From Terriglobia bacterium (GTDB lineage Bacteria > Acidobacteriota > Terriglobia > JAJPHL01): DNA of 49,619 nt. Shown here one piece after another: positions 19,844 through 35,457 of the stretch. The translations under genes and the position numbers were made by a program. Location of the stretch: assembly GCA_021325275.1 (NCBI GenBank), contig JAJPHL010000060.1:1-49619 (forward strand). Reading direction: 5' to 3'. The notes beneath the pieces are model-generated. The model did not search any database. It saw only the letters and a program-made list of their open reading frames with translations, and had not been told where the DNA came from. Each line of letters starts with the position of its first letter. The stretch's first letter is position 1.

Positions 19844-21092
19844 CGCCGCGGCCCATCCCGAGCTCCCGAAATGGCTGTGGGTCGTGAATTTTACCGGCGC
19901 CGTTCTGATGATGGTGGCACTGCCGCCATTCTGTTACTACATGTGGAACTGCATCGTCGAGTCCGGCGGCGCGCTCGTCTCGCCGGTAGGATTGTTCGCC
20001 AAAATCCCGGCGCCGACGCTGACTTCGGTGGAGATTTTCTTCGGCTGGTTCTTCTTGCATGTCATCCTGCAAATCGCCGCGCCCGGAAAAACCGCATACG
20101 GTCTTCCCCTCCCCGACGGCGGACGGCTGGCTTACAAAATGAACGGCCTGTTTTCTTTCTGGTTCTCGATCGCCGTCGCCGTTGGAGTGGTCTACTTCGG
20201 ATTTCTCAGCCCCGGCGTTCTCTACGATCAATTCGGTCCGCTGCTCACCACCGTCAACATTTTCACATTCGTATTTTCCTTCTACTTGTATTGGCTGGGT
20301 AAGACCTCGCCTACGCCCGAGCGCACCACCAGAAACGTGATCTACGACTACTTCATGGGAATGGCGCTGAATCCGCGCATCGGATCATTCGACCTGAAGT
20401 TGTTTTGCGAAGCGCGGCCGGGACTGATCGGCTGGGTGCTGATCAATTTTTCGATGGCCGCCAAGCAATACCAACTGCACCACACCGTGACCGTCCCCAT
20501 GATCCTGGTGTGCGCCTTCCATTTCCTCTACGTGGCGGACTATTACTTCAACGAAGACGCCGTCCTGACCACCTGGGACATCAAATACGAAAACTTCGGC
20601 TGGATGTTGTGCTGGGGAGACTTGGTGTGGGTGCCGTTCACCTATACGATCCAGGCGTTGTACCTGGTGAATCACACGCACGAATTGCCGGGGTGGGGAA
20701 TCGCCGGAATCGTAGCGCTGAACATGACCGGTTACGCCATTTTCCGTCTGACGAATATTCAGAAGCACCGATTCCGCAACGATCCCACGCGTCTGGTTTG
20801 GGGGAAGAAGCCGGAGTATCTCACCACGACCACCGGCTCGCTGCTGCTCACGTCCGGCTGGTGGGGAATCGCGCGTCACCTGAATTATTTCGGCGACCTC
20901 ATGATGGGCCTGGCCTGGTGCCTGCCGACTCTCTTCGATCATCCGCTGACCTATTTCTACATCGTGTATTTCACGATTCTGCTGGTGCATCGGGAACGGC
21001 GCGACAATAATTTTTGCCGCACCAAGTACGGCGCCGACTGGGATCGCTACTGCGCGAAGGTCCGCTGGCGGATTATCCCGGGCATTTATTAA
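19830..21092 (+). CDS. ERG24/DHCR7-family sterol reductase (probably C14, possibly C7)
   Basis: 420 residues with about nine membrane segments. Family signatures are clear: NPRIGSFDLKLFCEARPGLIG (residues 181-201, cut here for clarity), GDLVWVPFTYTIQ (263-275), the second signature LLTSGWWGIARHLNYFGD (339-356), and the C-terminal YGADWDRYC with R-IIPGIY at the end. The family reduces ring double bonds with NADPH: C14 in ERG24/TM7SF2/LBR and C7 in DHCR7. Features of both are present: the segment before 190 and VPFTY are C14-like, while AAKQYQLH resembles DHCR7. A C14 role fits the CYP51 in the same island, because CYP51 leaves a delta-14 double bond. Start overlaps the ERG2-like gene by 14 bases. 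Confidence 0.85.
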   Translation: MEKPSAAAHPELPKWLWVVNFTGAVLMMVALPPFCYYMWNCIVESGGALVSPVGLFAKIPAPTLTSVEIFFGWFFLHVILQIAAPGKTAYGLPLPDGGRLAYKMNGLFSFWFSIAVAVGVVYFGFLSPGVLYDQFGPLLTTVNIFTFVFSFYLYWLGKTSPTPERTTRNVIYDYFMGMALNPRIGSFDLKLFCEARPGLIGWVLINFSMAAKQYQLHHTVTVPMILVCAFHFLYVADYYFNEDAVLTTWDIKYENFGWMLCWGDLVWVPFTYTIQALYLVNHTHELPGWGIAGIVALNMTGYAIFRLTNIQKHRFRNDPTRLVWGKKPEYLTTTTGSLLLTSGWWGIARHLNYFGDLMMGLAWCLPTLFDHPLTYFYIVYFTILLVHRERRDNNFCRTKYGADWDRYCAKVRWRIIPGIY

Positions 21093-21107
21093 CGGCTTCC
21101 GCGTTGG

Positions 21108-21671
21108 CTATCGCATCAAATCCCGAAGCGCAGAGGCTGTCTGCGCCAGTCCGCGTGTTTCCAACGCCGCGAGATAGTCAGCAACGCTCATCGGCGGATT
21201 CTTCAGGCTCTCGCGATGATCGCTCGCAGCATCTGCGACGGCGGTCGGCGCGACACCCAACAAGCTGACGACGAACTCATCGGGATGTTGCGCCACGATT
21301 CCGCGTGGCTTTAGAACCTTCGCGGGGAAGTCCTTGAGATTCATGGTGACGATTACATCGGCGCGTCCGCGAATAGCTGCCGCAAGAACGTGACGGTCGT
21401 CGGGATCGGGCAAGTGTAAGCCCTCGATCAAGTCCTCATAGCCTGTGACCAGTGCGCCGCTCGCATGTTTGTCCATGAGCATTCTGGTTCGCTCAAGTTT
21501 CTCGCGCGATAAATCCGGACGCCGGCGCAACACCGCGCGAATCCATTCTTCATGCACGGCCGCCGACCATCTGGCGCGAAACAGACCCGTCAACGCTAAA
21601 TGCATTAGAAGATTTCGCAACTCGGAAGGAACGAGGACACTCGCGTCGTAGAATGCCGTCAATATGGACAA
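21108..21671 (-). CDS. PIN-domain ribonuclease toxin
   Basis: 187 residues. N-terminal FYDASVLVPSELRNLLMHLA carries the first conserved Asp of PIN domains; LPDPDDRHVLAAAIRGRADVIVTMNLKDFP carries the DxxD and second acid cluster. PIN toxins cleave RNA using a Mg2+ held by these acids. The gene follows a helix-turn-helix antitoxin-like gene by 9 bases on the same strand, forming a type II toxin-antitoxin module. It converges on the sterol reductase gene and splits the sterol island between the reductase and the methyltransferase. Confidence 0.8.
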   Translation of the reverse strand: MSILTAFYDASVLVPSELRNLLMHLALTGLFRARWSAAVHEEWIRAVLRRRPDLSREKLERTRMLMDKHASGALVTGYEDLIEGLHLPDPDDRHVLAAAIRGRADVIVTMNLKDFPAKVLKPRGIVAQHPDEFVVSLLGVAPTAVADAASDHRESLKNPPMSVADYLAALETRGLAQTASALRDLMR

Positions 21672-21680
21672 CAGGGTGAC

Positions 21681-22130
21681 CTAAATGCCAAGTTCCTGGT
21701 CGTAGGCCGCTAGCTCGGCTAGGGCGGCACGCCGGGCGGCATCCGCTTCGCGTTTATGCTTCATCAGCGAATCGAATCGGACGCGGCGGTGAGTACCGAC
21801 GCGCCGATACTCGATCTTGCGTTCATCCAGCAGTTGGATGAGGGAAGGACGCGAGATATCCAGCATGTCCGCCGCCTCCTGCGTCGTCAACTCCGCGCGC
21901 ACCGGAATGAGCGTCACTGCATTTCCCAAGGCCAATTCTTCAAGGCCACGAAGGAGAAGGCGCACCGCCGGCGCGGGCAGGGTCATCGTTTCGCGTGACG
22001 GATCACCCACGATCCGAACTTGCGCGGGCCGATCCTTGCGCAACCGGGACGCAAGCGCCCGCCTCGTTTCTTTGGCCACGACGGCCTCTGTTTGGGATGG
22101 CAGGGATGTCGGCGGCGAGGCATGGTGCAT
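21681..22130 (-). CDS. Excisionase-type HTH antitoxin
   Basis: 149 residues from MHHASPP (ATG at 22130); a GTG- or ATG-like start 10 codons upstream is possible. The C-terminal half holds an excisionase/MerR-like HTH: ELTTQEAADMLDISRPSLIQLLDERKIEYRRVGTHRRVRFDSL (residue ~80 onward, shown only as landmarks TTQEAADMLDISRPS and EYRRVGTHRR). The N-terminal half is basic and alanine-rich. Such HTH proteins pair with PIN_3-type toxins, neutralising them and repressing the shared promoter. The toxin gene begins 9 bases downstream. Confidence 0.75.
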   Translation of the reverse strand: MHHASPPTSLPSQTEAVVAKETRRALASRLRKDRPAQVRIVGDPSRETMTLPAPAVRLLLRGLEELALGNAVTLIPVRAELTTQEAADMLDISRPSLIQLLDERKIEYRRVGTHRRVRFDSLMKHKREADAARRAALAELAAYDQELGI

Positions 22131-22232
22131 GAACGATTCTCCTGTGGATGATCTTAACACTCAATCGAAGCATCCGCAAGGAATCGTAGCAGATGAAAGC
22201 GCCCTAAATAGCGCGTGATAGGGGTCTCGGGT

Positions 22233-23285
22233 TCAGTCAGACGGCTTCCGCGCAACGATGTAGTAGCTGGTAGTCGATAGTCCCGCACGATCCGCTTCGA
22301 TCAGCGCGTCGCCATCTTTCGTGAGGCGGTCGAACAACGCCTTGAAGTGGCGCGGCAGGACCTTGCATTTCACCGAGAGTTCGATCAGCTTCGATGCGCG
22401 CTTGTAAAATCGCTCGGCGGTTTCGATCAGCGGCGCCTGAAGACCGTTGATGCTGGCGTTTTTGCTCTCGTGGATTTCGAATCCGGCTTGTCTCATGGGC
22501 GAAACGTACTGATCCACAGTGGGAGTGCCGATCGCGCCGATCAGCGGCTTGATGCGGCGCATCAATTCCAGGTGGTGAGGATTGGCGGGATCGTAGTTGT
22601 CCAGAGTCACCCAGTCGAGGCACGCGAATTTCGCGCCGGGTTTCAGCAATCGGAAGATTTCGCGGAAGAGTTTCTCGAAATCCTTCGCGTAGCTGAAGGC
22701 TTGAACGTGGTACACCGCGTCGAAACTGGCGTCGGCAAAGGGAAACGGCAGGTCGTTCATGTCGTGGATTTGAAACTGACAAGTCTTTGCGAGTCCATGT
22801 CCAGCGAGTCCTTGCCGGCGAGCATACTCGTTGCCGCTGGCTACCTGTCCAGGGTCGAGGTTGATGCCTGTCACGCTCGCGCCTGAATACGTCGCCATCC
22901 CACAGGCAATTCTTCCGCGTCCGCATCCGATGTCGAGCACGCGGCTGGCGTTGTTCAGTTCCAGATCGCGGGCCATTTGCTGCTCGAAAAGCGTTTGATT
23001 CTCCGGGATACTCTTGGTAAGGTCCATCGCCGGCGGAATGTACATCTTTTCGATCTCGCCGAGCGTGCAAAGGTGATTCAGCACCGCATAGTAGTCGACG
23101 ATTTTGCGCTTTACCTCGCGATAATAATCGCTGCCCATTTGGCGGCGCAGTTCGTCTTCGTTCGCCCAGTCGTGATCGAAGATGTCGTACGACGCCAGGA
23201 ACGAATCCACGGTGGTTTGCGGCAAAGTGTAGAGGGCCCGGAACGATCGCGCGGCGGTCGAGAGCCGGTACAGGCTGAAACTCAT
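22233..23285 (-). CDS. Divergent sterol-methyltransferase-like SAM methyltransferase
   Basis: 350 residues. The SAM-binding motif is LDIGCGRGRIACGMA (residues 117-131), followed by VTGINLDPGQV, FPFADASFDAVYHVQAF, LFREIFRLLKPGAKFACLDWV and YDPANPHHLELMRRI, an order and wording close to ERG6/SMT proteins. The usual SMT substrate motif (YDLxTDFYEFGWGxSFHF) is replaced by a related but distinct stretch at residues 65-86 (YYAVLNHLCTLG, then EKMYIPP). The enzyme is therefore probably a sterol or triterpenoid C-methyltransferase with altered substrate or position, such as a second side-chain methylation or a different carbon. It overlaps the upstream Rieske gene (ATGA), so both are coupled. Position of methylation is not predictable from sequence. 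Confidence 0.8.
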   Translation of the reverse strand: MSFSLYRLSTAARSFRALYTLPQTTVDSFLASYDIFDHDWANEDELRRQMGSDYYREVKRKIVDYYAVLNHLCTLGEIEKMYIPPAMDLTKSIPENQTLFEQQMARDLELNNASRVLDIGCGRGRIACGMATYSGASVTGINLDPGQVASGNEYARRQGLAGHGLAKTCQFQIHDMNDLPFPFADASFDAVYHVQAFSYAKDFEKLFREIFRLLKPGAKFACLDWVTLDNYDPANPHHLELMRRIKPLIGAIGTPTVDQYVSPMRQAGFEIHESKNASINGLQAPLIETAERFYKRASKLIELSVKCKVLPRHFKALFDRLTKDGDALIEADRAGLSTTSYYIVARKPSD

Positions 23286-24268
23286 GCTCGCTCTGACGGA
23301 ACGCTCGCGGCCTGTTCCGCGCGGGGTTTAGGAAAGCTGTAGAACTGATGATTCCACTTGCGAAAGCGAATCAAATCGCGATCCTGCTCCGCCAGCACCG
23401 GCCGGGAGGGAAACGTCTTGTTCTCCCAAACCGGAATATCCTCGCTGATCTCCGCCATCACGCGATTCATCAACACGCGTTGCATGATCGCCGAAAAAAT
23501 CCGGAACCGCGACTTCTTGAACAACACCATGAAACGGAAATCCATCGACTCTTCGTCGATCGGCGTGATCACAAACACGATCACGAAGCTCATCTTCGCT
23601 TCTACGTGGACCACCTGGAGTCCCACGCCGTAGACATCGAAGGAAAAAGTAGCCGGCGAGACGAACGGACCATACTCCGACAGGGCTTTGAGGGCCACAC
23701 GGAAATGACGTCCGTCTTCCTGCCACTCGACGACCTTCGGACACTCGCGGAAACCGTGATGGATGAAATTGAAGTGTCCTGTGTCGATCATGTTTTCCTG
23801 AGTTTCCTGGATGTGCGCGCGGATCATGCGGCCGGTGCGTCCGTGCGCAAATTGTCCGGAGTTGTACTCGGGAATGTCGGGGATTTCGAAATCCGGCGCG
23901 AAACCTTCGGCGTGGTAATGCGCAAAGATCACGCCGTTGCGCTCGACGATCGGCCACGCGTTCAATTTGGCCTGCGGCGGGATCTTCGAGGAGAACGGAA
24001 CTTCCACACACGTACCGGAGCCGTCGAAACGCCAGCCGTGATACGGACACTTGATCGTGTTATCCACCACTTTGCCGCCCATGCCGACGTGCGCGCCCAA
24101 GTGCGGACAATGCGCGTCCATCACTCGCGCTTGCCGATCCTCGCCGCGGAAGATCACCAAGTCGCGGCCAAAATACTTCACCGGCTTGACGCCGTTCACC
24201 GGCACTTCATCGCTGAAGGCCACGCGAAACCAGCCGTTGGGATAAGGAGGAATCGGATAAGTTCTCAT
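23282..24268 (-). CDS. Rieske non-heme iron oxygenase, sterol-type (SdmA / DAF-36 / KshA-like)
   Basis: 328 residues. The Rieske [2Fe-2S] ligands are Cys54, His56, Cys74 and His77 in CPHLGAHVGMGGK and CPYHGWRFDG. The mononuclear iron site is Asp162, His165 and His170 in the stretch ENMIDTGHFNFIHH. The N-terminal PYPNGWFRVAFSDEVP and the spacing resemble single-component steroid oxygenases: bacterial SdmA (C4 demethylation), DAF-36/Neverland (C7 desaturation) and KshA (C9 hydroxylation). In this island the most economical role is oxidation of a C4 methyl group, as SdmA does in Methylococcus. The partner 3-ketoreductase/dehydrogenase is not in the window. Gene is coupled to the downstream SMT-like gene and follows the flavoprotein gene by 10 bases. 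Confidence 0.85.
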   Translation of the reverse strand: MRTYPIPPYPNGWFRVAFSDEVPVNGVKPVKYFGRDLVIFRGEDRQARVMDAHCPHLGAHVGMGGKVVDNTIKCPYHGWRFDGSGTCVEVPFSSKIPPQAKLNAWPIVERNGVIFAHYHAEGFAPDFEIPDIPEYNSGQFAHGRTGRMIRAHIQETQENMIDTGHFNFIHHGFRECPKVVEWQEDGRHFRVALKALSEYGPFVSPATFSFDVYGVGLQVVHVEAKMSFVIVFVITPIDEESMDFRFMVLFKKSRFRIFSAIMQRVLMNRVMAEISEDIPVWENKTFPSRPVLAEQDRDLIRFRKWNHQFYSFPKPRAEQAASVPSERA

Positions 24269-24278
24269 GCGATCAGTC

Positions 24279-25520
24279 TCATGCGACCAGTTGTCTCGCC
24301 AACTCCAACATCATCGGGAAGGCAATGCTCGGCCGCAGATAACCGGACTTCGGCTTGGCGCCGGTCATGACTTCTCCCCATTCGCGAAGAAAATCGGCGC
24401 CGCGCCGTTGCACCATCGATGCCGACGCGTCGAGCAGCCACGGATACCGCGCGCACATCCGCGCCATCCGCTCCGACCACTTGAAGTCGCTTCCGAATGT
24501 TTTCATCCAGCGCTTGTGATAGCGGCTGAGAAACGCCTCGCTGAGATCGTTGGCGCGTAAACCTTCGCCGATCACTTCCGCGGCGATCGATGCCGCGTCA
24601 ATCGCATGATGAATTCCTTCGCCCGTCAGCGGATCGATTTGTCCCGCGGCATCGCCGACAATCAACAAGTGGTCGGCGGCCGATCGCGCGATTCCGCCGA
24701 GGCGCAATTCCGCGCCTTGCATTTTGCGGAAGCGCGCGCGGGGACCGAGGGCCTGGCGCAAGTTCGGATCGTCGCGCAGCACGCGATCGTGAATGCTTTT
24801 CAGATCGGTGTTGGCGCATTTTCCGCCGGGGAGAATGTAGGCGCAGAAATTCAGCAGTCCTTGGGCTTCGCGGAATAGCGCGCAGTAGCCGGGCAGCAAG
24901 TCCGGCGGATAATAGACCACGCCATCGGCATCGAAATCCGTGGAGTCGGCCTCGATATACGCGCGACTGCACACGGCCTGCGATCGCGTGGTCACAATCC
25001 CCAGCGACCGGGCGATTCTCGACGGCGATCCGTCCGCTGCCACGAGCACACGCGCGCGAAAGGGAGCCGCGGCGCCGCGTGCGTGATGAATCGTCCACAG
25101 TCCTTCGCTCTTCGAAAACTCGAGCGCCCCGGCGGGATACTCTTCCACTAGATTCGCGCCGGCTTTCTGTGCAGCACGCGCCATTTTTTCGTCGAGGATG
25201 ATGCGCCGGATGGCGATCACCAGCGGCGGCTTGGTGGCGTCGACCGAACTGCCGACGAACCCAATGCCCTTAGGACTATAAAAACCGCCGACGGCGGCCC
25301 ACTTGCCCAGGTCTTCGGCTTCGATCTCCTGCAACACTCCCATGCGCCGCAGATGCTCATGCGCCGGAGAGCAAACGGCGTCGCCGCAAATCTTGTCGCG
25401 CGGAAAGCGCTGACGTTCGAGCAGCAGCACGCGCACGCCTTGCTTGGCCAGATAAAACGCGCAGGTCGATCCTGCGGGTCCAGCGCCGGCAATGCAAACA
25501 TCGTACGTTCGCTCGTTCAT
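24279..25520 (-). CDS. Geranylgeranyl-reductase-family flavoprotein
   Basis: 413 residues from the ATG at 25520; a TTG three codons upstream is the only alternative. FAD-binding GAGPAG lies at residues 12-17, the reductase-type motif DKICGDAVCSP follows near residue 42, a DG motif appears at VLVAADGSPSRIARSLG, and VGDAAGQIDPLTGEG is at about 288-302. These match the geranylgeranyl reductase family, which hydrogenates isoprenoid double bonds. In a sterol island without a DHCR24-type gene, it may reduce a side-chain double bond (delta-24 or delta-24(28)); this is inference. It is the first gene of a minus-strand operon with the Rieske and SMT-like genes and is divergent from the canonical SMT across a palindromic element. 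Confidence 0.85.
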   Translation of the reverse strand: MNERTYDVCIAGAGPAGSTCAFYLAKQGVRVLLLERQRFPRDKICGDAVCSPAHEHLRRMGVLQEIEAEDLGKWAAVGGFYSPKGIGFVGSSVDATKPPLVIAIRRIILDEKMARAAQKAGANLVEEYPAGALEFSKSEGLWTIHHARGAAAPFRARVLVAADGSPSRIARSLGIVTTRSQAVCSRAYIEADSTDFDADGVVYYPPDLLPGYCALFREAQGLLNFCAYILPGGKCANTDLKSIHDRVLRDDPNLRQALGPRARFRKMQGAELRLGGIARSAADHLLIVGDAAGQIDPLTGEGIHHAIDAASIAAEVIGEGLRANDLSEAFLSRYHKRWMKTFGSDFKWSERMARMCARYPWLLDASASMVQRRGADFLREWGEVMTGAKPKSGYLRPSIAFPMMLELARQLVA

Positions 25521-25543
25521 CACGATCAAGATATATCACGACA

Positions 25544-25634
25544 CTTTGGAGTGCGGCGACTTGTCGCCGCTTTCGTCCTTTGGCTTTACGACCAACGCTA
25601 AGGGAAAGCGGCGACAAGTCGCCGCACTCCAAAG
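25544..25634. repeat. Double-palindromic mobile-type element, copy A
   Basis: Two perfect 31-bp arms (25544-25574 and 25604-25634) flank a 29-nt centre. Each arm contains its own palindrome, GCGGCGACTTGTCGCCGC. A second copy lies at 28282-28369 in the opposite orientation, with a similar centre. The layout resembles REP/BIME or MITE elements. The right arm ends 14 bases before the SMT start codon. Confidence 0.85.
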
Positions 25635-25636
25635 GC

Positions 25637-25642
25637 TATAAT
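25637..25642 (+). promoter_or_regulatory. -10 box of a possibly leaderless SMT promoter
   Basis: A perfect TATAAT lies 6 bases before the ATG at 25649 and just after the palindromic element. No ribosome binding site follows it. If used, transcription would begin at or next to the start codon, giving a leaderless mRNA. No clear -35 box was seen because that position is inside the repeat arm. Confidence 0.4.
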
Positions 25643-25648
25643 ACAACG

Positions 25649-26635
25649 ATGAAACCCACCGTCGATGGCCTGCGGGACTACGCTTCACTCCAGGACATCT
25701 CCATCGAGGAGCGGCGTGCGCGATACGCCGCGATTGCGCGGCAATTCTACGACCTGGCCACGGATTTCTACGAGTTCGGCTGGGGACAATCGTTCCACTT
25801 CGCACCGCGCGAGAAGGGCGAAACGCTGCGCGCATCCATTCTTCGTTACGAACACCGCGTGGCGGAAGCGCTGGGCTGTCGCGCGGGGGACAAGTTGATC
25901 GATTTAGGATGCGGCGTGGGAGGTCCGATGCGCACCATGGCGCGGGATTTCGTCGCCACCGTCACGGGCATCAACATCAATGCGTATCAGATCGGCCGTG
26001 GGTGCACGCACAATCGCAAACAGGGACTCGAACATCTCTGTCGTTTTGTTCGCGCCGACTTTGCCAATTTGCCGCTCGCCGACAATTCCTATGACGGCGC
26101 TTACGAATTTCAGGCCACGTGCCACGCGTCGGACCGCCGTGCGGTGTACAGCGAAATCTTTCGCATCCTGAAGCCCGGCGCTTCTTTCGTCGGTGACGAA
26201 TGGTGTTTGACGCCTGCGTACGACCCTGCCAACGCCGAACACCGGCGCATCAAGCGCGACATCGAGGTCGGCAACGGATTACCCGACATCGAGAGCATTG
26301 AAGTCGTGCTCACAGCGCTCCGCAGCGCCGGATTTGAGATTGTGCTGCACGTGGACCTGGCGTCCTCGGGATCGCCGGAGACGCCGTGGCATCTTCCGCT
26401 CTCGAAACGCTGGTCGATGGCGCAACTACAATGCACAACGATCGGTCGCGTGATCACCACGGCCGTGCTGAAGTTGATGGAATCTGTCCGCGTGGCGCCG
26501 GCGGGCACCGCCGCCGTGAACGAGTTGCTTTGCACCGCGGCCGATTCGCTGGTCCAAGGTGGACGGATCGGAATCTTTACGCCGCTCTACTTTCTACACG
26601 CGCGTAAGCCTACTGGATCGTCACCAGCCCGGTAG
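25649..26635 (+). CDS. smt: Sterol C24-methyltransferase (ERG6/SMT type)
   Basis: 328 residues from the ATG at 25649; the upstream extension encodes the palindromic element and is rejected. The canonical SMT region I is intact (FYDLATDFYEFGWG then QSFHFAPR), followed by the SAM site LGCGVGGPMRTMAR, YEFQATCHA, YSEIFRILKPG, EWCLTPAYDPAN, and the C-terminal substrate-side region with GGRIGIFTP, all in ERG6 order. The enzyme adds a methyl from SAM to the delta-24 double bond of a sterol side chain. Typical eukaryotic SMTs are about 340-380 residues, so this is slightly short but complete. It converges with the radical-SAM gene, overlapping it by 26 bases at the 3' ends. Confidence 0.92.
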   Translation: MKPTVDGLRDYASLQDISIEERRARYAAIARQFYDLATDFYEFGWGQSFHFAPREKGETLRASILRYEHRVAEALGCRAGDKLIDLGCGVGGPMRTMARDFVATVTGININAYQIGRGCTHNRKQGLEHLCRFVRADFANLPLADNSYDGAYEFQATCHASDRRAVYSEIFRILKPGASFVGDEWCLTPAYDPANAEHRRIKRDIEVGNGLPDIESIEVVLTALRSAGFEIVLHVDLASSGSPETPWHLPLSKRWSMAQLQCTTIGRVITTAVLKLMESVRVAPAGTAAVNELLCTAADSLVQGGRIGIFTPLYFLHARKPTGSSPAR

Positions 26636-28214
26636 CGGAAGGCTGCAGCGCCGGTTCCGGCGTATAAATAGAAGCCGCCGCTTTGCCGTCCCGCACGTCT
26701 TCGCCGAAGCGGATCAAGTGATGGCTAACGGTGGCGATATGGATTAGGTAATCCACGTGTCCTTCGCGCAGCAGTTCCCATGCCAGGCGCCAGAACTCAC
26801 GTTTGTAGTTCGACCGAACGCCGATGTTCCAGAAGATCGTCGCCAGCGCGAAGACACCAATCCGCACGATCCGCCAGGAAAATCCGTAGCGTGCCATCGC
26901 CAGCTTCTTCTGATTCGGAAACGTGTTCTTGATGTTGTAGCGGAAGCGGTCATATAACCCTTTGGGTTCGTAGCTCGCCGCAATCGCTTGCTTCCACTGA
27001 TTGATCACCACATCGTGCGGCAGCTTGAACACCACGTTCGAATCCACCCATTCATCTTCCGCGATGATCCGGTTTTCGGTTTCCAGTTTGTCCCACAGCG
27101 GCGACTTGGGAAGGGCGAAGAGCACGTTGAGTAACACCAACGGAATCTCCGCGTCGCGGACCATCTGAATGACATGCTCCGCAGCGTCCGGGCCGTCCGC
27201 GTCCATGCCAAAAATAAAGCCTGCGCTCAGTTCGATGCCGAAGGAGTTGAAGATTTTCACTGCTTCCAGAATCGGCATGCGAATGTTCTGGTGTTTGTCG
27301 ATGTTTTTGAGCGTGGCGGTGTTCGGGCTTTCGATGCCGAAGTACATGCCGACGAAGTACGCCTCCTGGAGCAGTGCGAGCAGTTCACGGTCTTGCGCCA
27401 GGTTGAGCGTACACTGCCCGCTCATGCGCAGGCGATAGTTGGTGCGCTTCTGCCACTCGATCACGTGCGGGAGCAGCTCCTTGGCGGCCTTCTTGTTGCC
27501 GATCAGATTGTCATCCACCCAAAAAATCGTGGTGAGGGGATTGTGCGAGATGATGGCGTCCAGCTCGGCCACTAAGCGTTCGGGCGATTTCACGCGCGGC
27601 TCGTGTCCGTAGAGCGCCGGGATGTCGCAGAAATCGCAAGTGTAGGGGCAGCCCGACGACCACTGGATACTCAAGAGCATGTACTTGTGCATGGGCACCA
27701 AGTGGTACGCGGGAATGGGGAAATCGTTGATCGGCAATCTGTGCTGTGTGGTCAGCACGATCTGTTCGGCCGGCCGCTCCACGGATTCGTCGAGCAACCG
27801 GATCAATTCGTCCGTCGAGTCGCCGAGTTCTCCGACTTGGAGAATATCGAAGCCGGGGTGGTAAGACGCTCGTGAGCTTACCGACGGTCCTCCGGCGATC
27901 GCGACTTTTCCGAACGCGTGAGCGCGCTCCGCGAGGAAGGCCATGCGCTTTTTCTGGACGTGCATGCCCGAAACAAAGACCGCGTCGGCCCATGCGAAAT
28001 CGGCGTCCTCGGTGGGACGAATGTTCTCATCCACGACGCGCACTTCCCACTCTTCCGGAAGATACGCGGCGATGGTCAGGATGCCCTGCGGCGTCATGAA
28101 GGCGTCGGTATCGGGAAAGAACTGATACGCGTGATAAAAGTTGGCGAACGCGGGAACGTATCGGGCAAAAACGCAGAGTATCTTGCGGCGGCTTTGAACC
28201 CCAGAATAGCGCAT
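26610..28214 (-). CDS. B12-binding radical SAM methylase resembling hopanoid C2-methylase HpnP
   Basis: 534 residues from the ATG at 28214 (GGCGGAG upstream); a start 13 codons earlier is less well supported. The N-terminal ~150 residues form a cobalamin-binding domain (CVFARYVPAF, MTPQGILTIAAYLPE, VRVVDENIRP, VSGMHVQ, AIAGGPSVS). The radical SAM cluster motif is CPYTCDFC, with Cys189, Cys193 and Cys196. FCDIPALYGHEPR, FWVDDNLIGNKKAAKELLPH, YFGIESPNT and the C-terminal DUF4070-like region recall HpnP, which methylates hopanoids at C2. No hopanoid gene is present here; the neighbours are sterol genes. A methyl transfer to an unactivated sterol carbon is therefore the leading inference. Other DUF4070 proteins have unknown substrates. 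Confidence 0.85.
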   Translation of the reverse strand: MRYSGVQSRRKILCVFARYVPAFANFYHAYQFFPDTDAFMTPQGILTIAAYLPEEWEVRVVDENIRPTEDADFAWADAVFVSGMHVQKKRMAFLAERAHAFGKVAIAGGPSVSSRASYHPGFDILQVGELGDSTDELIRLLDESVERPAEQIVLTTQHRLPINDFPIPAYHLVPMHKYMLLSIQWSSGCPYTCDFCDIPALYGHEPRVKSPERLVAELDAIISHNPLTTIFWVDDNLIGNKKAAKELLPHVIEWQKRTNYRLRMSGQCTLNLAQDRELLALLQEAYFVGMYFGIESPNTATLKNIDKHQNIRMPILEAVKIFNSFGIELSAGFIFGMDADGPDAAEHVIQMVRDAEIPLVLLNVLFALPKSPLWDKLETENRIIAEDEWVDSNVVFKLPHDVVINQWKQAIAASYEPKGLYDRFRYNIKNTFPNQKKLAMARYGFSWRIVRIGVFALATIFWNIGVRSNYKREFWRLAWELLREGHVDYLIHIATVSHHLIRFGEDVRDGKAAASIYTPEPALQPSATGLVTIQ

Positions 28215-28281
28215 ATCTCCGCCGATGCTATCAGAGCGTTGCTCACGCGTCAATCAGCAGTCCTTATTCGCGGCGGGACCA

Positions 28282-28369
28282 TTTGGAGTGCGGCGACTTG
28301 TCGCCGCTTTCTCAATGCGTTGGCGTAAAGCTGAAGGACGAAAGCGGCGACAAGTCGCCGCACTCCAAA
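28282..28369. repeat. Double-palindromic mobile-type element, copy B
   Basis: Perfect 30-bp arms at 28282-28311 and 28340-28369 around a 28-nt centre. The arms equal those of copy A at 25544-25634, and the centre matches the reverse complement of copy A's centre (shared GCGTTGG, GTAAAGC, AAGGAC). It lies in the promoter space between the radical SAM gene and the exporter genes. Confidence 0.85.
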
Positions 28370-28448
28370 GTGTTGCTCCGTAAAAGCGTGGTTCTGAAAA
28401 ATGTACGATTTCCGCTGTAGAAACTTCTGCTGTAGAATTGAGTCCGCT

Positions 28449-29531
28449 ATGGATTCACCAGAAACTCCCTCGATCGCCAAGCCCCGCCGGTCTGCAAAAT
28501 GGTTGTGGCTCCTCGTCATTTTGTTGGTCGTCGCCTCGGCGTTGCCGATCGTTCATTATGTCCGCGCACAGCAAGCGCCTCCGACGGCAGCACCGCAGCA
28601 ATCTGCGCAGACCGCCAATGGCGTCTCGTGCCTCGGCCGGGTCGAACCTGAGGGCGGCGTCCTGCATATCGCGGGACGATATATTTCCGGCCGCCCGCCG
28701 GTGGTGGAGACGTTGCATGTTCAGGAAGGCCAGCAGGTGAAGACCGGAACGCTGCTCGCGACTTTGTCCGGACGAGCGCAGCAGGCAGCGGCTGTCGAAT
28801 CGGCGAAGGAACAGATCGAAGTCGCGCGCCGGCGTCTGGATCAGGTCAAAACCAGCACCGTGAGGAAACCGGATCTCGCGGCGCAGCAGGCGGAAATCTC
28901 GAGACTCGAAGCAACTCTCAAGAACCAGCAAGCCGAATTGCAGCGCTACGAGAATCTGCGCAAGACCGACGACGTCACGCCGTCCGAACTCGACGCGCGA
29001 CGCACCGCGGTTCTCACCTCGCAACATGCCATCGACGAAGCACGCCAGCGGCTGGCCAGCCTCAACGAGCCCGTGCGCGACGCCGATATTAAGGTCGCCG
29101 AAGCGCAACTCCAGGCCGCCGTCGTGGACGCGGAGCACGCGCAACGCGAATACGAGCTCACCGCCATCTCCGCGCCATCGGATGGACAGGTGCTGAAGAT
29201 TCTCGCCCACCCGGGAGAAGAAGTCGGACCGCGTGGACTGATCGAGATGGGACGAACCAACAAGATGTACGTTGTCGCCGAAGTCTACGAGACCGATATC
29301 TCACGCGTTCACAAAGGACAGCACGCCACCATTTCAGGCGACCTCGTGGGTCAGGAATTGACCGGTACGGTGGAGCGCGTGGGAACGCACGTCGTGGCGC
29401 CTTCGGTGGGGCCGAATGATCCGACGACGTTCAACGACAATCGCATTGTCGAATGCAAAATCCTCCTCGACCAGGGAGATCGCGTCGCCAACTTGATCGA
29501 CGGCAAAGTGATGGTGGTGATCCACCCGTGA
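28449..29531 (+). CDS. devB: DevB/HlyD-type membrane fusion protein
   Basis: 360 residues from the ATG at 28449. One N-terminal membrane helix (residues about 18-38, WLWLLVILLVVASALPIVHYV) is followed by a lipoyl-like segment (VETLHVQEGQQVKTGTLLATL), a long coiled-coil hairpin (about 110-220, many Gln/Glu/Arg heptads) and a second lipoyl half (LTAISAPSDGQVLKILAHPGEEVGP). The C-terminal MFGN-like beta region ends with LLDQGDRVANLIDGKVMVVIHP, as in DevB. In cyanobacteria DevB joins the DevC permease to TolC for export of envelope glycolipids. Here it is coupled to the DevC gene (GTGA overlap) within the sterol island, so a sterol or sterol-conjugate cargo is inferred. Confidence 0.85.
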   Translation: MDSPETPSIAKPRRSAKWLWLLVILLVVASALPIVHYVRAQQAPPTAAPQQSAQTANGVSCLGRVEPEGGVLHIAGRYISGRPPVVETLHVQEGQQVKTGTLLATLSGRAQQAAAVESAKEQIEVARRRLDQVKTSTVRKPDLAAQQAEISRLEATLKNQQAELQRYENLRKTDDVTPSELDARRTAVLTSQHAIDEARQRLASLNEPVRDADIKVAEAQLQAAVVDAEHAQREYELTAISAPSDGQVLKILAHPGEEVGPRGLIEMGRTNKMYVVAEVYETDISRVHKGQHATISGDLVGQELTGTVERVGTHVVAPSVGPNDPTTFNDNRIVECKILLDQGDRVANLIDGKVMVVIHP

Positions 29532-30682
29532 GCCGCCGCATCCCCCTGGCGTGGCGGCAATTGATGCACCAACGCTTGCGGCTGTGCGCCGCCATTGCGG
29601 GCATCACGTTTGCCGTGGTGCTGATGCTGGTGCAGTTGGGTTTCAAAGACGCCTTGGTCAACAGCGCCGGGTTGCACATCTCGCACATGGCGTGCGATCT
29701 GGCGATCGTGAGTCCGCTTTACGAGTTTCTGGTGGCCCCCGGCCACTTCCCGAAGCGTCGCCTCTATCAATGCCTGGAAGTAGAAGGAGTGGCTTCCGTC
29801 AATCCTCTGTATGTCGCCGAAGTTCCGTGGAAAGACAACTGGGACCGGACCGAACACAGCATCTTTGCGATTGGATTTGATCCCCGGCCCGGATTTTTCG
29901 ATTTGCCGGAAGTGGATCGTTACCTGCCCAAATTGCGAGAAGGTCCAACGACTCTCTTTGACTCTCGCTCGCGATCGGAATTTGGACCGGTGGTTGCCGA
30001 ACTCGCCAAGGGACGCCCCATTCCGGTGGAGATTGCCGGACACCACGTAGATGTGATCGGCACGTTCAGTCTGGGCACATCGTTCGGCGCGAACGGAACG
30101 CTGCTGATGAGCGATCGCACGTTTCTTCGCAGCCTTCCGTACCGCAATCTCGACTTGGTGGATTTCGGATTGATCAAACTGAAGCCCGGCTTCGATCGGG
30201 AGCAGGTCCGAGCGCGGGTGGAAGCGGCGCTCCCTCGCGATGTTCGGGTGTACACGCGGGACGGCCTGATCGATGTCGAACAATCGTATTGGCTGAGGGC
30301 CACGCCGATTGGATTTGTCTTCAACATCGGCGTGGTGATGGGCATGTTCGTAGGATGCATCATTGTCTACCAGATTCTCTACACCGACGTGAACGATCAC
30401 CTCGGCGAGTACGCCACGCTGAAAGCCATGGGATATCCCAACCGCTACCTGCTCTGGGTGGTCATCCAGGAATCGATTATCCTGTCGCTGTTTGGATTTG
30501 TGCCGGGCGTCGGTCTATCGGTTTTGGTGTATAAAATCGCGGGAGACGCGACCATGCTCCTCTTACGAATGCCGATCAGCCGGGTGGTGATCGTCTATGT
30601 CCTTACCGCCGTGATGTGCGTGGCCTCGGGCGCCTTAGCCGTGAGACGAGTGTACGAAGCCGACCCCGCGGAAATTTTCTAA
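29528..30682 (+). CDS. devC: DevC-type ABC permease (FtsX family)
   Basis: 384 residues from the GTG at 29528, which overlaps the DevB stop; the longer frame upstream is antisense-like and rejected. Topology is FtsX/MacB-like with four membrane helices: one near residues 18-40 (LCAAIAGITFAVVLMLVQLGF), a ~230-residue periplasmic domain, then three C-terminal helices (about 265-285, 315-340 and 350-372). The opening IPLAWRQLMHQRLRLCAA and GYPNRYLLWVVIQESIILS are typical of DevC. It uses ATP from a DevA-type ATPase, here encoded on the opposite strand 9 bases away, to push lipid cargo into DevB/TolC. Confidence 0.85.
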   Translation: MSRRIPLAWRQLMHQRLRLCAAIAGITFAVVLMLVQLGFKDALVNSAGLHISHMACDLAIVSPLYEFLVAPGHFPKRRLYQCLEVEGVASVNPLYVAEVPWKDNWDRTEHSIFAIGFDPRPGFFDLPEVDRYLPKLREGPTTLFDSRSRSEFGPVVAELAKGRPIPVEIAGHHVDVIGTFSLGTSFGANGTLLMSDRTFLRSLPYRNLDLVDFGLIKLKPGFDREQVRARVEAALPRDVRVYTRDGLIDVEQSYWLRATPIGFVFNIGVVMGMFVGCIIVYQILYTDVNDHLGEYATLKAMGYPNRYLLWVVIQESIILSLFGFVPGVGLSVLVYKIAGDATMLLLRMPISRVVIVYVLTAVMCVASGALAVRRVYEADPAEIF

Positions 30683-30690
30683 ATCGAATT

Positions 30691-32025
30691 TCAGGCAGCC
30701 AAGTGGGTGTTGTGGCCCTGCATTTTCTGGCAGCTCTCCACCACGAGCGAGAAAAGCTCGGCGAACTCCGCAAAGGTTTTTTCGTCCTGCGCGTCGAAGG
30801 GTTTCCAGTCCAGCCGGTTGATGACCTGCGCCACCGCGAAGATTTTCTTCTTGCGATCGAGAATCGGCATGCACAAGATGCCGCGCGTACGGTAGCCGGT
30901 ATCGATGTCGACTTGCATATTGAACTGCGGGTGGCCATACGGATCGGGAATGTTGGCCACTTCTCCGGTGCGAGCCACCATGCCGGCGATGCCCGCATCG
31001 ATGGGAATCTCGATCGTCATGGGCTTGCCGAGTTCGTCGGTGGCGATCTTGGAGCGCAGTTTTCCGTGCTCATGATCCACCGCGAAAATGGTGCAGCGAT
31101 CCGCGTTAAGCAGCAGACGCACCTTTTCGCCCACCGCGGCCAAGACTTGGTCGAACAGCGCTTCCACGGCGTCCCGGTTGCCGAGTTCGCTGGCTTTCAA
31201 GAAGCCTTCGAACTCCGAAGTCATCTGCTCCAGCATTTCGACGAACTGCTTGTTGGAGAGCTCCGAAACGTGTTTCACCAGATCGCCGCGTTGGTGAAGT
31301 TGCGCGAACGCTCCCAGGAGATGGCCGGTGTTGGCGGCCAACCCTTCCGCAAACGAGCGGATCGAGCCGTCTTCCAGGGTCAAAATTCGATCCGCGATAT
31401 CGAGAATGCGGTTGTCGTGCGTCACCAGCAGAATCGCGCAACCTTGCTTCCGCGCCAGGTCCTGCAGAATCTCCACCACCTCGCGTCCGCTCTTGCGATC
31501 GAGCGAAGCGGTCGGCTCGTCGGCCAGGATAATTTTGGGGCGGCGGACGAGCGCGCGCGCAATCGCCACGCGCTGCCGTTGACCGCCGGAAAGCTGGTCC
31601 GGCCGATAATCGACGCGCTCGTCCAGTCCCACCAGCGAGAGCAGTTCCACGGCGCGCCGGCGGGACTCCTTGGCTGACAACGATCGTTCCAGCCCCATTG
31701 ACATCTCGACGTTCTCGCACGCGGTGAGTGCGTTGAGAAGGTTGTGCTGTTGAAAAATGAAGCCAATGTTTTCGCGAATCTCCATCAGGTCTTCGGGGCT
31801 GGCGCCGTTCAACTCGCGGTCCAGCACCGTCATGCTGCCTTCCTGAACCGAACGCAGCGCGCCCGCCAACGTGAGCAGCGTGGTCTTACCGGATCCCGAG
31901 GGTCCCGTGAGAAGAACGATTTCTCCGGGCATGATCTCCGCGCTGACGTCGAACAAAACGCGTTTGCGAAGCGCTCCTTTGCCGTAGTAATGGCTGACCT
32001 GTTGCGCGGCAATCAATGGTTGCAT
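30691..32025 (-). CDS. devA: DevA-type ABC ATPase fused to a GAF sensor domain
   Basis: 444 residues. The N-terminal ~225 residues are a LolD/DevA-like ATPase: Walker A GPSGSGKTT (41-49), Q-loop FQQHNLLNALT, signature LSGGQRQR (145-152), Walker B IILADEPTASLD (165-176) and His switch LLVTHDNR. Residues about 230-280 form a helical linker, and about 280-440 a GAF domain (ADRCTIFAVD, EVANIPDPYGHPQFN, GYRTRGILCMPI, AVAQVINR, FDAQDEKTF). The Asn-Arg...Phe...Asp-Glu pattern resembles the NKFDE signature of cyclic-nucleotide-binding GAF domains. A ligand-gated exporter ATPase is inferred. The gene converges on DevC and is divergent from CYP51, with 91 bases between. Confidence 0.88.
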   Translation of the reverse strand: MQPLIAAQQVSHYYGKGALRKRVLFDVSAEIMPGEIVLLTGPSGSGKTTLLTLAGALRSVQEGSMTVLDRELNGASPEDLMEIRENIGFIFQQHNLLNALTACENVEMSMGLERSLSAKESRRRAVELLSLVGLDERVDYRPDQLSGGQRQRVAIARALVRRPKIILADEPTASLDRKSGREVVEILQDLARKQGCAILLVTHDNRILDIADRILTLEDGSIRSFAEGLAANTGHLLGAFAQLHQRGDLVKHVSELSNKQFVEMLEQMTSEFEGFLKASELGNRDAVEALFDQVLAAVGEKVRLLLNADRCTIFAVDHEHGKLRSKIATDELGKPMTIEIPIDAGIAGMVARTGEVANIPDPYGHPQFNMQVDIDTGYRTRGILCMPILDRKKKIFAVAQVINRLDWKPFDAQDEKTFAEFAELFSLVVESCQKMQGHNTHLAA

Positions 32026-32116
32026 TTCCGTTGAGTATACCTGAAACGGCTAACTCCGTAGTACGGTCCAACCGAATGGCCGCCGTGATACTGTCGGATC
32101 AGGATTCGGGATCGTC

Positions 32117-33469
32117 ATGAGTATTCCAAAACTTTCCGGCGGGCTGCCGTGGCTGGGCCACGCGCTGGAATTCCACCGCAATCCGGTGGACTTCCTGAGC
32201 CGCGGACGAGAACGCTACGGCGAAATCTTTTCGTTTCCCCTGGCCGGCCAGCGCGTCAACGTGCTCACCGAACCGCGCGGGAATGCGGCCTTCTTCCGTG
32301 CGCCCGACGATCAATTGAGTTCCCGCGAAGCCTACCAGTTCACCGTGCCGATGTTCGGCAAAGGCGTCGTCTACGATGTGCCACCGGAAACTTTGGACGA
32401 GCAGATTGGCTTTCTCTTGCCGGCGCTACGCGACGCTCGCATGCAGACGTACGCGCAATCGATCGAAGAAGAAACCGAAGAGCGTTGCGCGGAATGGGGC
32501 GACGAAGGCGAAATCGAGTTGGCGGAATTCATGAACGAGTTGACGGTCTTCAACGCCTGCCGCTGCTTGATCGGGCGGGAATTCCGCCGCCGGACCTCCG
32601 CCGAATTTGCGCGCAGCTATCATGATCTGGAATGCGGCGTGAACTTGGTGGCGTTCTTCAATCCGCGGATTCCAGTTCCTAAGAATCTCCGCCGCGATCG
32701 GGGACGCGCCAACATCGTCCGTCTGATTTCTCGAGTCCTGAAAGAACGGCGGCAGAAACCCGCGGCCGACGAGGATTTCGTCGATACGCTGATGGCGGCC
32801 CGCTACGCGGACGGCCGCGCTCTCTCCGACGACGAGATCGCCGGAATGCTGGTGGTCTCGATCTTTGCCGGCCAGCACACCAGCGCCGTGATGTCCGCCT
32901 GGACCGGCATTTTACTCCTGCAACACCCGCAGTATCTCGAGCGCGTGCGCGCCGAGCAATCGCTGCTTCCTGCCGGCCAACCGCTGACACTCGCGTCTTT
33001 GCGATCGCTCGTCGTACTCGAGCAATGCATCAAGGAAGCGGAACGCATGTTCCCTCCAATCGTCATGCTGATGCGCATGATCCAGCGCGATTTTACGTAC
33101 GAAGGTCACGTGATGCCCGCGGGAGACTTGGTGATGGTCGCGCCGGCTGTGACGCATCGGCTTCCCGATGTCTTCCGCGATCCGGATCGTTACGATCCCG
33201 ATCGTTTCGGACCGGGCCGCGAGGAAGATCGCCGCACGCAGTTTTCGTTGATCGGTTTCGGCGGCGGCAAACACCGCTGCGTCGGTTCGGGATTCGCGTA
33301 TCAGCAGATTAAAACGATCTGGACGGTGCTTCTCCGCCGTTTCGATTTGCAACTCGCGCCGGGAGAATACGTCCCTGACTACTCGACGTGGGTGGTGGGA
33401 CCGCGCCGTCCCTGCATGCTGCGATATCGCAGGCGCCGTCGAGCAGATGCAATCGCGAAAGCCTCATGA
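32117..33469 (+). CDS. cyp51: Sterol 14-alpha-demethylase, cytochrome P450 CYP51
   Basis: 450 residues without the N-terminal membrane anchor of eukaryotic CYP51, as in bacterial forms. Diagnostic motifs: B-C loop SREAYQFTVPMFGKGVVYD (69-87), I-helix FAGQHTS (250-256), ExxR at 307-310 (EAER), heme loop FGGGKHRCVG with axial Cys388, and the C-terminal LRYRRR. The pattern at the B-C loop and I-helix (AGQHTS) identifies CYP51 rather than another P450. It removes the C14 methyl of lanosterol-type sterols in three oxidations, leaving a delta-14 bond for the ERG24-type reductase in this island. It heads an operon with the cyclase (ATGA overlap) and squalene monooxygenase. Redox partners are not seen nearby. 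Confidence 0.93.
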   Translation: MSIPKLSGGLPWLGHALEFHRNPVDFLSRGRERYGEIFSFPLAGQRVNVLTEPRGNAAFFRAPDDQLSSREAYQFTVPMFGKGVVYDVPPETLDEQIGFLLPALRDARMQTYAQSIEEETEERCAEWGDEGEIELAEFMNELTVFNACRCLIGREFRRRTSAEFARSYHDLECGVNLVAFFNPRIPVPKNLRRDRGRANIVRLISRVLKERRQKPAADEDFVDTLMAARYADGRALSDDEIAGMLVVSIFAGQHTSAVMSAWTGILLLQHPQYLERVRAEQSLLPAGQPLTLASLRSLVVLEQCIKEAERMFPPIVMLMRMIQRDFTYEGHVMPAGDLVMVAPAVTHRLPDVFRDPDRYDPDRFGPGREEDRRTQFSLIGFGGGKHRCVGSGFAYQQIKTIWTVLLRRFDLQLAPGEYVPDYSTWVVGPRRPCMLRYRRRRRADAIAKAS

Positions 33470-35457
33470 CCGAACCCACGGCAATCGACGGCACGGAAAA
33501 CGGCGTCTCCACTGCTCTCGAGCGGGCGTGGGAGTGGATCGGCGCACGGCAGTCTGCCAACGGCTGTTGGGAAGGCGAGGTGATCTGGTGCCCCATGATC
33601 ACGGCACAGTACGTCATCGCCCGCCGAATCCTCAATCTCGGATTCGATGACTCGACGCGCGACGGAATCATCCGCTACTTCGAGACCACGCGCGTGAACG
33701 GCGCGGGTTGGGGATTGCATCCGGAATCCCAACCATACGTGTTCGTGACGACGCTCGTTTACGTCGCGCTGCGTTTGTTGGGCGTGCCGCCCGAGCATCC
33801 GCTGACGCAGCCGGCGCGCGAATGGCTGCTGGCACAACCGGGCGGTGTCGCCGCCATTCCCACGTGGGGCAAATTTTGGCTGGCGCTCATCGGACTCTAC
33901 GAGTATCGCGGAATGAGTCGGATTCCGCCGGAACTCTTTCTGCTTCCGCGATGGCTGCCCGTGCATCCCGACAAACTCTATTGCCACACCCGCTACATCT
34001 ATCTGGGAATCGCGTATCTCGCGGGTCGTGAATTCCGCGTTGAACTGCCGGAAACTTCCGAACTGCGCCGTGAACTCTACGCCGATCCCTATGCACGGAT
34101 AGAGTTCGCATCGTTCCGCAATCGTGTTTCGCCGTCCGATGTGTACGTGGAACCGTCACCGCTGCTGCGGCGCGTGTTTGGTCTTCTGCGCTGGGCCGCG
34201 CGCCTCTCGCCTGCGCCACTCAAACGTCGCGCGCTGGCGCATTGCGCTTCGAGAATCGAATATGAGCAGCGCGCCAGCCGCTATCAGGGCCTTTCGCCAG
34301 TCAACGGCATTCTGAACACGATCGCGATGTTCGACATGCGGCATTCCGAACTAGCAACCAGCGTCGAGGGCCTCGAGCGCTGGCGTTGGCAGGATGATCG
34401 TGAAGGCGTGCGCTTCGCGGGGGCGCGGTCGAACGCATGGGATACGGCGTTTACCATGCAGGCGCTTGTTGAATACACACCTGCCGGCGCGCAAGCGCGC
34501 GAGTTCCTGCGCCGCGGTTACGGATTTCTCCGCGACACTCAGATGATCGAGGAATTGCCCGATCTCCGCGCGCAGGCGCGCGATCCCATTCGCGGCGGAT
34601 GGTGCTTTAGCGACGGTCAACATCGCTGGCCGGTCAGCGATTGTACGGCGGAAGCATTGTGCGCCATTCTCGCGGCGCACGATTCGCCCGGATTGATTCC
34701 CGCCAACCAGAGAATTTCCGACGATCGCCTGCAATCCGCGGCCGAGTTCATTTTGGCGCGGCAGAATCCGGATGGCGGATTCGGCACCTACGAACGCCGG
34801 CGCGGCGCGCGATTCTTGGAGCAGATCAATCCATCCGAAATGTTCGGCCAATGCATGACGGAAGGTTCCTACATTGAATGTACTTCCTCCGCGGTAAAAG
34901 CCTTGTCGAGATTCGCGCGCGCTTTTCCCGGGCGAATCGCGACGGCCTCGGCCGTGGCCCGCGCCTGCGCGTTTCTGCGATCCCGCCAGCGCAGCGACGG
35001 ATCGTATCCCGGCTTCTGGGGAATCAATTTCACGTACGCGAGTCTCTTCGTCACTGAAGCGTTGAGCGAATCACGTCTCGCCGGCGATGGAACGCTGCGG
35101 CGGATCGCGGAGTGGCTCATCGCGCATCAACGCGAGGATGGCGGATGGGGCGAGCACTACACGAGCTGTTTGGACGGAGTGTACCGCGAGCATTCGCAAA
35201 GCCAAGCGGTGATGACGGCGTGGGCGCTGCTGGCGCTGATCGAGATCGGCGGCCCGGAGTCGAGCGCCGTGGAACGCGGCATCGCCTGGCTGATGGCGCG
35301 GCAGTCCAATGACGGAATCTGGCCACGCGAGGCTGTGAACGGTGTATTCTTCGGATCAGCGATGCTCGACTACGAGCTCTACCGGGCGTACTTTCCGGCG
35401 TGGGCGCTGGCCCGATATGCGCGGACGCTTGAGAGCAAACGCATGGATCGCAAATGA
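33466..35457 (+). CDS. osc: Oxidosqualene cyclase, lanosterol-synthase type
   Basis: 663 residues from the ATG at 33466, overlapping the CYP51 stop (ATGA). The catalytic motif is SDCTAEA with Asp392, as in oxidosqualene cyclases; squalene-hopene cyclases have DxDD instead. The residue two before that Asp is Val390, as in lanosterol synthases (Ile in plant cycloartenol synthase). His174 (CHTRYIYL) and Tyr469 (GSYIECT) align with yeast His234 and Tyr510, which steer product outcome. Several QW repeats are present (QSANGCW, QNPDGGF, QRSDGSY, QREDGGW, QSNDGIW), and the C-terminus reads YFPAWALARY. The product is predicted to be lanosterol or a close protosterol; exact specificity needs an assay. 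Monotopic membrane association is known for the family. Confidence 0.93.
   Translation: MTEPTAIDGTENGVSTALERAWEWIGARQSANGCWEGEVIWCPMITAQYVIARRILNLGFDDSTRDGIIRYFETTRVNGAGWGLHPESQPYVFVTTLVYVALRLLGVPPEHPLTQPAREWLLAQPGGVAAIPTWGKFWLALIGLYEYRGMSRIPPELFLLPRWLPVHPDKLYCHTRYIYLGIAYLAGREFRVELPETSELRRELYADPYARIEFASFRNRVSPSDVYVEPSPLLRRVFGLLRWAARLSPAPLKRRALAHCASRIEYEQRASRYQGLSPVNGILNTIAMFDMRHSELATSVEGLERWRWQDDREGVRFAGARSNAWDTAFTMQALVEYTPAGAQAREFLRRGYGFLRDTQMIEELPDLRAQARDPIRGGWCFSDGQHRWPVSDCTAEALCAILAAHDSPGLIPANQRISDDRLQSAAEFILARQNPDGGFGTYERRRGARFLEQINPSEMFGQCMTEGSYIECTSSAVKALSRFARAFPGRIATASAVARACAFLRSRQRSDGSYPGFWGINFTYASLFVTEALSESRLAGDGTLRRIAEWLIAHQREDGGWGEHYTSCLDGVYREHSQSQAVMTAWALLALIEIGGPESSAVERGIAWLMARQSNDGIWPREAVNGVFFGSAMLDYELYRAYFPAWALARYARTLESKRMDRK

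Follow-up and report, generated by a model that had tools for sequence, protein, structure and literature searches.

A radical-SAM/B12 protein sister to the hopanoid C-2 methylase HpnP in an acidobacterial sterol island: a candidate sterol methylase

We analyzed a 49,619-nucleotide contig of a Terriglobia bacterium (JAJPHL010000060.1, assembly GCA_021325275.1; the whole stretch is hereafter called the window) and found that its sterol island, about 18 kb long and spanning 19286 to 36833, holds a gene for a radical-SAM protein (the rSAM gene) that is a sister, and not an ortholog, of the hopanoid C-2 methylase HpnP. On balance, we read the rSAM gene as encoding a cobalamin-dependent radical-SAM C-methylase that would act on the island's sterol. 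More tentatively, methylation may fall on ring A, at C-2; this would be the first radical-SAM/B12 sterol C-methylase, from an HpnP-sister lineage recruited in bacteria with an oxidosqualene cyclase (OSC), and a candidate source of 2-methyl steranes. Ring A (C-2) would be the conservative guess, by extrapolation from HpnP, and a side-chain carbon the alternative. The features of the island are, in window coordinates:

19286-19843, plus strand: ERG2-like sterol C-8 isomerase
19830-21092, plus strand: ERG24/ERG4-family sterol reductase
22233-23285, minus strand: SMT2-like methyltransferase without the SMT C-terminal domain
23282-24268, minus strand: Rieske oxygenase, KshA_C type
24279-25529, minus strand: geranylgeranyl-reductase-family flavoprotein, candidate Bsr-type sterol C-24 reductase (TIGR02032, 163.9 bits, over cut-off)
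25544-25634, no strand assigned: hairpin copy 1, upstream of SMT1
25649-26635, plus strand: SMT1, sterol methyltransferase with Sterol_MT_C domain (Pfam)
26610-28214, minus strand: HpnP-sister B12/radical-SAM/DUF4070 protein (ORF, Pfam domains, phylogeny)
26682-27101, minus strand: its DUF4070 domain (Pfam)
27165-27662, minus strand: its Radical_SAM barrel, residues 198-363 (Pfam)
27414-27416, minus strand: its Q280 codon (the position is Glu in the nearest relative, L057, in every HpnP-like protein compared and in at least 95% of HpnPs)
27627-27650, minus strand: its CPYTCDFC sequence, a CxxxCxxC [4Fe-4S] motif, residues 202-209
27714-28193, minus strand: its N-terminal Rossmann-like domain, presumed cobalamin-binding, about residues 21-180 (predicted fold compared with B12 radical-SAM enzymes)
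28282-28369, no strand assigned: hairpin copy 2, upstream of the rSAM gene
28401-32025: possible export unit of HlyD (28401, plus), FtsX/MacB permease (29453, plus) and ABC ATPase-GAF fusion (30691, minus)
32117-33469, plus strand: CYP51 sterol 14-alpha-demethylase (396 bits to a PDB CYP51)
33388-35457, plus strand: OSC with DCTAE motif (TIGR03463, 859.5 bits, over cut-off)
35454-36833, plus strand: squalene epoxidase (Pfam)

The rSAM gene was first called in an earlier, sequence-only reading of this DNA, and it proved to be real with its start as placed there: an uninterrupted ORF runs over 26610-28253 on the minus strand, opening at a TTG at 28253 (547 aa), and the conserved start lies at residue 14 of that frame, an ATG at 28214, giving a product of 534 aa. 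Residues are numbered throughout in the 547-aa frame. The CxxxCxxC motif and DUF4070 tail described in that reading were recovered as well, with the cluster motif C202-PYT-C206-DF-C209 intact and Pfam matches of 1.8e-12 (Radical_SAM) and 1.7e-25 (DUF4070). Radical SAM, DUF4070 and CxxxCxxC are thus all present as in HpnP, with which the protein shares its architecture and is colinear, and the gene is the sole DUF4070 gene of the genome. The cobalamin domain was supported by predicted fold and by this colinearity but not by profile, since the Pfam B12-binding model (PF02310) at E<=5 matched neither the rSAM protein nor L057 and matched four HpnPs (L064, L114, L093 and L138) weakly. An AlphaFold model of the protein (mean pLDDT 83.8) matched solved class B radical-SAM enzymes from about residue 20 on (AprD4, Z 23.6 over 382 residues; MgmA, 21.5; TsrM, 18.9; CysS, 18.7), the common fold covering the cobalamin-domain and barrel regions and most of the chain. 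Because the model aligns with B12 radical-SAM enzymes from this residue, the cobalamin domain appears to be present in fold, with cobalamin as its presumed ligand. No HpnP model of NCBIfam matched the rSAM protein, and profiles therefore leave the family naming undecided. HpnR, the hopanoid C-3 methylase, is likewise a B12 radical-SAM enzyme, and the rSAM protein lies far under the cut-off of its model TIGR04367 (41.3 bits against 650, over residues 195-353 only). GC3 of the gene is within the island range, and base composition gave no sign of recent import.

Matches to OSC, squalene epoxidase, ERG24, ERG2 and CYP51 upheld the proposal of a sterol island, and the rSAM gene is indeed paired with a sterol methyltransferase: it and SMT1, a Sterol_MT_C protein, are convergent and overlap by 26 bp at their 3' ends. 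Translation of the OSC probably begins further downstream than 33388. Bsr is a sterol C-24 reductase described from myxobacteria (PMC12004948); the flavoprotein resembles it and, with its match to the family model, is a candidate for that role. The SMT2-like gene overlaps the Rieske gene, and its product is 33% identical to SMT1 over 259 residues. The HlyD/FtsX/ABC-GAF set that separates the rSAM gene from CYP51 is a candidate unit for sensing or exporting sterols; an outer-membrane-efflux-like protein, as read from the sequence, follows squalene epoxidase at 36897. A PIN-domain-like ORF and a helix-turn-helix excisionase-like ORF lie between ERG24 and the SMT2-like gene (21108-22160) and look, by eye, like a toxin-antitoxin pair. 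As this unrelated pair also sits in the island, membership of the island does not prove function.

We found no SdmA-type C-4 demethylase over cut-off in the genome, the best match being the island Rieske protein, with 75 bits against a cut-off of 600. This oxygenase is of the KshA_C type, whereas in two other members of the class the sterol island encodes a VanA_C (SdmA-like) oxygenase together with an SDR. C-4 demethylation may therefore be missing here or be done in another way. If the genome is without another demethylase, one may speculate that the sterol would keep a 4,4-dimethyl ring A, like the ring A of hopanoids.

Two near-identical long hairpins with nearly perfect arms (z -12.5 and -10.3) enclose SMT1 and the rSAM gene and no other gene. 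Elsewhere in the window the hairpin arm is absent, and a 440-kb sample of the genome contained one complete hairpin and a lone arm. The hairpins are possibly REPIN/MITE-like elements, and their placement faintly hints that SMT1 and the rSAM gene have moved, or been kept, as a pair.

To place the protein among its relatives, we scanned named genomes, which gave 80 HpnP-clade loci, and built trees under C20 mixture models, the final tree omitting L154 (a frameshifted row). The nearest match to the rSAM protein was L057, a protein of a Myxococcaceae MAG, at 55% identity, followed at 44-50% by HpnPs of cyanobacteria, Bradyrhizobium, Methylorubrum, Eremiobacterota and one genome of the same class. 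The rSAM protein and L057 formed a clade (99/92) that is sister to all sampled HpnPs of genomes bearing a squalene-hopene cyclase (SHC; 98/96), and the HpnP side of the tree, with these two proteins included, was split from the HpnP-like proteins at 100/100. The phylogeny that the sequence-only reading had proposed as a check thus sets the rSAM protein, with L057, beside the HpnPs of SHC-bearing genomes and far from the HpnP-like proteins. That reading had named strict clustering within true HpnPs of hopanoid-making genomes as evidence against itself; no such clustering was seen, although the genome does have hopanoid synthesis genes, as described below. A vertically inherited acidobacterial HpnP was rejected, the constrained grouping with acidobacterial HpnP having a p-AU of 3e-41. 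Constraining the rSAM protein and L057 with the proteobacterial HpnPs was rejected marginally (p-AU 0.041), and the basal position is therefore only moderately secure. The end branch of the rSAM protein is the longest on the HpnP side, at 0.87. Samples of the phylum and of the class, one each, gave no further member of the clade, and among the Myxococcota genomes searched only L057 qualified, other myxobacterial matches being about 36% identical and HpnP-like.

We compared the protein with 185 HpnP-invariant columns, defined as those at least 95% identical in 44 HpnPs. Barrel strand limits came from predicted secondary structure and were set after a first look at the changed columns, and the following barrel p-values are therefore somewhat optimistic: the rSAM protein was changed at 19/40 barrel columns (strands 2-6 and their ends) against 27/145 elsewhere (odds ratio 3.95, p 4e-4), and L057 at 10/40 against 14/145 (p 0.016). 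When each HpnP was left out in turn and compared with less similar HpnPs, the changes numbered 0-2 among about 40 barrel columns and were not enriched there; in two acidobacterial HpnPs and in that of Methylobacterium, 0-1 columns were changed. HpnP-like outgroups changed many columns with no barrel bias (odds ratio 0.6-1.1). At F250L, E280Q, A281C, F304Y, T309S and T384S, the original residue is common to HpnP and all HpnP-like proteins compared. The barrel of the rSAM protein and L057 differs from that of HpnP by more than overall divergence would account for, as expected if the substrate differs. Two features that define HpnP are therefore lacking in the rSAM protein: it branches beside, and not within, the SHC-genome HpnPs, and 19 of the 40 HpnP-type barrel invariants are changed. 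Because it is a sister rather than an ortholog of HpnP and has lost these invariants, a non-hopanoid substrate is favored.

Gene neighborhoods and co-occurrence bear on the identity of that substrate. In the flanks of the 80 HpnP-clade loci (1.5 Mb in total), none had a homologue of SMT, SQE, ERG2, ERG24 or genuine CYP51. This 0/80 count, the bracketing by hairpins and the fold matches were counted in favor of a methylase of the island's sterol. SHC-type cyclase matches were present in 29/30 HpnP-clade genomes checked (a few of them split or partial), the exception being the genome of L057. That genome, a MAG, instead has an OSC with a DCTSE motif (716 bits to TIGR03463, 35% identity to the window OSC) and no canonical SHC; to say that it has no squalene cyclase at all would overstate the case. 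Two divergent cyclases there (L144:11135-14185 and L146:8650-11640), with DTDD and DCDD motifs, are closer to SHC but reach only 280 and 269 bits with its model (cut-off 431). L057 lies on a 9.6-kb contig, and sterol genes are not beside it there; its distance from sterol genes and the two SHC-like cyclases of its genome were counted against the sterol reading. A sterol substrate is favored because the rSAM gene sits in a sterol island, overlapping SMT1 tail to tail, and because the L057 genome has an OSC and no canonical SHC.

Among 399 genomes of the class, 4 have an OSC and 3 an HpnP-clade gene, and the source genome alone has both. The three other OSC-bearing genomes have no HpnP-clade gene, and the rSAM gene is therefore accessory at best. 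One of their islands (G953) has homologues of SMT1, ERG2, OSC, CYP51 and ERG24, and another (G443) has OSC, CYP51 and ERG24 homologues with a methyltransferase match in a fused frame; both are without the rSAM gene and carry an SdmA/SdmB-like pair instead. In the proposed check of OSC against SHC co-occurrence, the L057 genome has an OSC and no canonical SHC, and the source genome has both cyclases.

The earlier statement that no hopanoid gene is nearby holds for the window but not for the genome, where two SHCs (703 and 586 bits, cut-off 431) and HpnH (516.6 bits) are found on other contigs. A genome without hopanoid genes is thereby ruled out, the earlier argument from their absence fails at genome scale, and a hopanoid substrate is available. 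The main rival explanation is that the sole DUF4070 gene of this genome encodes a divergent methylase of C-2 in the hopanoids made by its two SHCs, with an accidental position in the island; we consider this unlikely, while giving it more weight than any other alternative. It draws support from the 44-50% identity to HpnPs of known 2-methylhopanoid-producing genera. The distance from SHC says little against it, since a survey of HpnP found no HpnP-SC synteny in any phylum (PMC10697835). Although that survey states no synteny, we found a squalene-cyclase homologue within about 10 kb in 26/80 HpnP loci; the best cases are in Bradyrhizobium (the 26 loci include L069, L077 and L083), and in L066 the homologue is a canonical SHC by position. 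The neighbors of the rSAM gene are, in contrast, sterol genes. Its product is also sister to the SHC-associated HpnPs rather than among them and stands apart from the HpnP of its own class; barrel positions kept by all sampled HpnPs are changed, including E280Q; and the genome of its nearest relative is without a canonical SHC. A sterol as substrate agrees with the island position and with the OSC genome of L057, and is weakened by the hopanoid genes of the same genome.

It is less probable still that another isoprenoid or lipid is methylated, such as a sterol precursor like squalene, a sterol that is conjugated or exported, or a lipid that has nothing to do with the island. Relatives of the radical-SAM type abound in the phylum (a match in 349/396 genomes), and a predicted export unit lies between the rSAM gene and CYP51/OSC. 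For HpnP-like DUF4070 proteins, it is not even known whether the substrate is a terpenoid (PMC10697835). The clean separation of the HpnP side, including the rSAM protein, from these HpnP-like proteins argues against such a substrate, as does the finding that functionally confirmed members of the HpnP side act on polycyclic triterpenoids (PMC10697835). Drift to a protein that is no longer an active methylase, with E280Q and the long branch as signs of relaxed constraint, is very improbable: the branch is indeed the longest on its side, the changed Glu is conserved across HpnP and HpnP-like proteins and the B12-binding profile has no match, but the ORF and cluster motif are intact, GC3 is that of the island, and losses cluster in the barrel instead of being scattered, 118/145 invariant columns elsewhere being kept.

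The protein is likely to work like HpnP and, as a methylase of the island's sterol, would carry out a late tailoring step beside SMT1. By homology to HpnP and class-B methylases, a [4Fe-4S] cluster on C202/C206/C209 would cleave SAM to a 5'-deoxyadenosyl radical, this radical would abstract hydrogen from an unactivated sterol carbon, and methylcobalamin held by the N-terminal domain would serve as methyl donor. Sterol methyltransferases use ionic chemistry to methylate a double bond (PMC10070321), whereas the rSAM protein, as a radical-SAM/B12 enzyme, should instead target a carbon that is not activated. Bacterial sterol 24-C-methyltransferases, the type to which SMT1 belongs, occur in bacterial sterol islands and, as is expected of the rSAM protein, take their methyl group from SAM (PMC10070321). 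In comparison with HpnP, the rSAM protein belongs to the sister of the SHC-associated clade and has remodelled barrel strands, and its gene lies in a sterol island while HpnP genes stand alone or near SHC.

It has been previously reported that the deepest branches of the HpnP clade are myxobacterial, from genomes without squalene cyclase, and Hoshino et al. (2023) suggested that these deep-branching homologues are not hopanoid enzymes (PMC10697835). The position of the rSAM protein and L057 fits these deltaproteobacterial branches as placed in our trees, at the same base of the clade and with a myxobacterial partner. The host here is, however, acidobacterial and has both SHC and OSC (PMC10697835 for the comparison). 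Unlike the homologues of Hoshino et al., the rSAM gene lies inside a sterol island, and a candidate substrate is thereby given.

As the sequence-only reading had said, 2-methyl steranes are present in the fossil record; a radical-SAM route to the methylation of sterols has been raised, with no gene assigned and no enzyme named (PMC6997595). Our search of the open-access journal literature found no sterol radical-SAM methylase described, and on A-ring methylated steranes it gave little beyond this one paper. With a named gene, a defined island and a defined sister group, the question of radical-SAM sterol methylation becomes a simple expression experiment. If our reading is true, it would explain the puzzling deep-branching HpnP homologues of myxobacteria without squalene cyclase (PMC10697835), and it would suggest that HpnP-clade proteins are poor evidence of 2-methylhopanoids unless cyclase type and barrel residues are checked. 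Should the methyl group be placed on ring A, the enzyme would be a candidate for the biological origin of the 2-methyl steranes found in the geological record.
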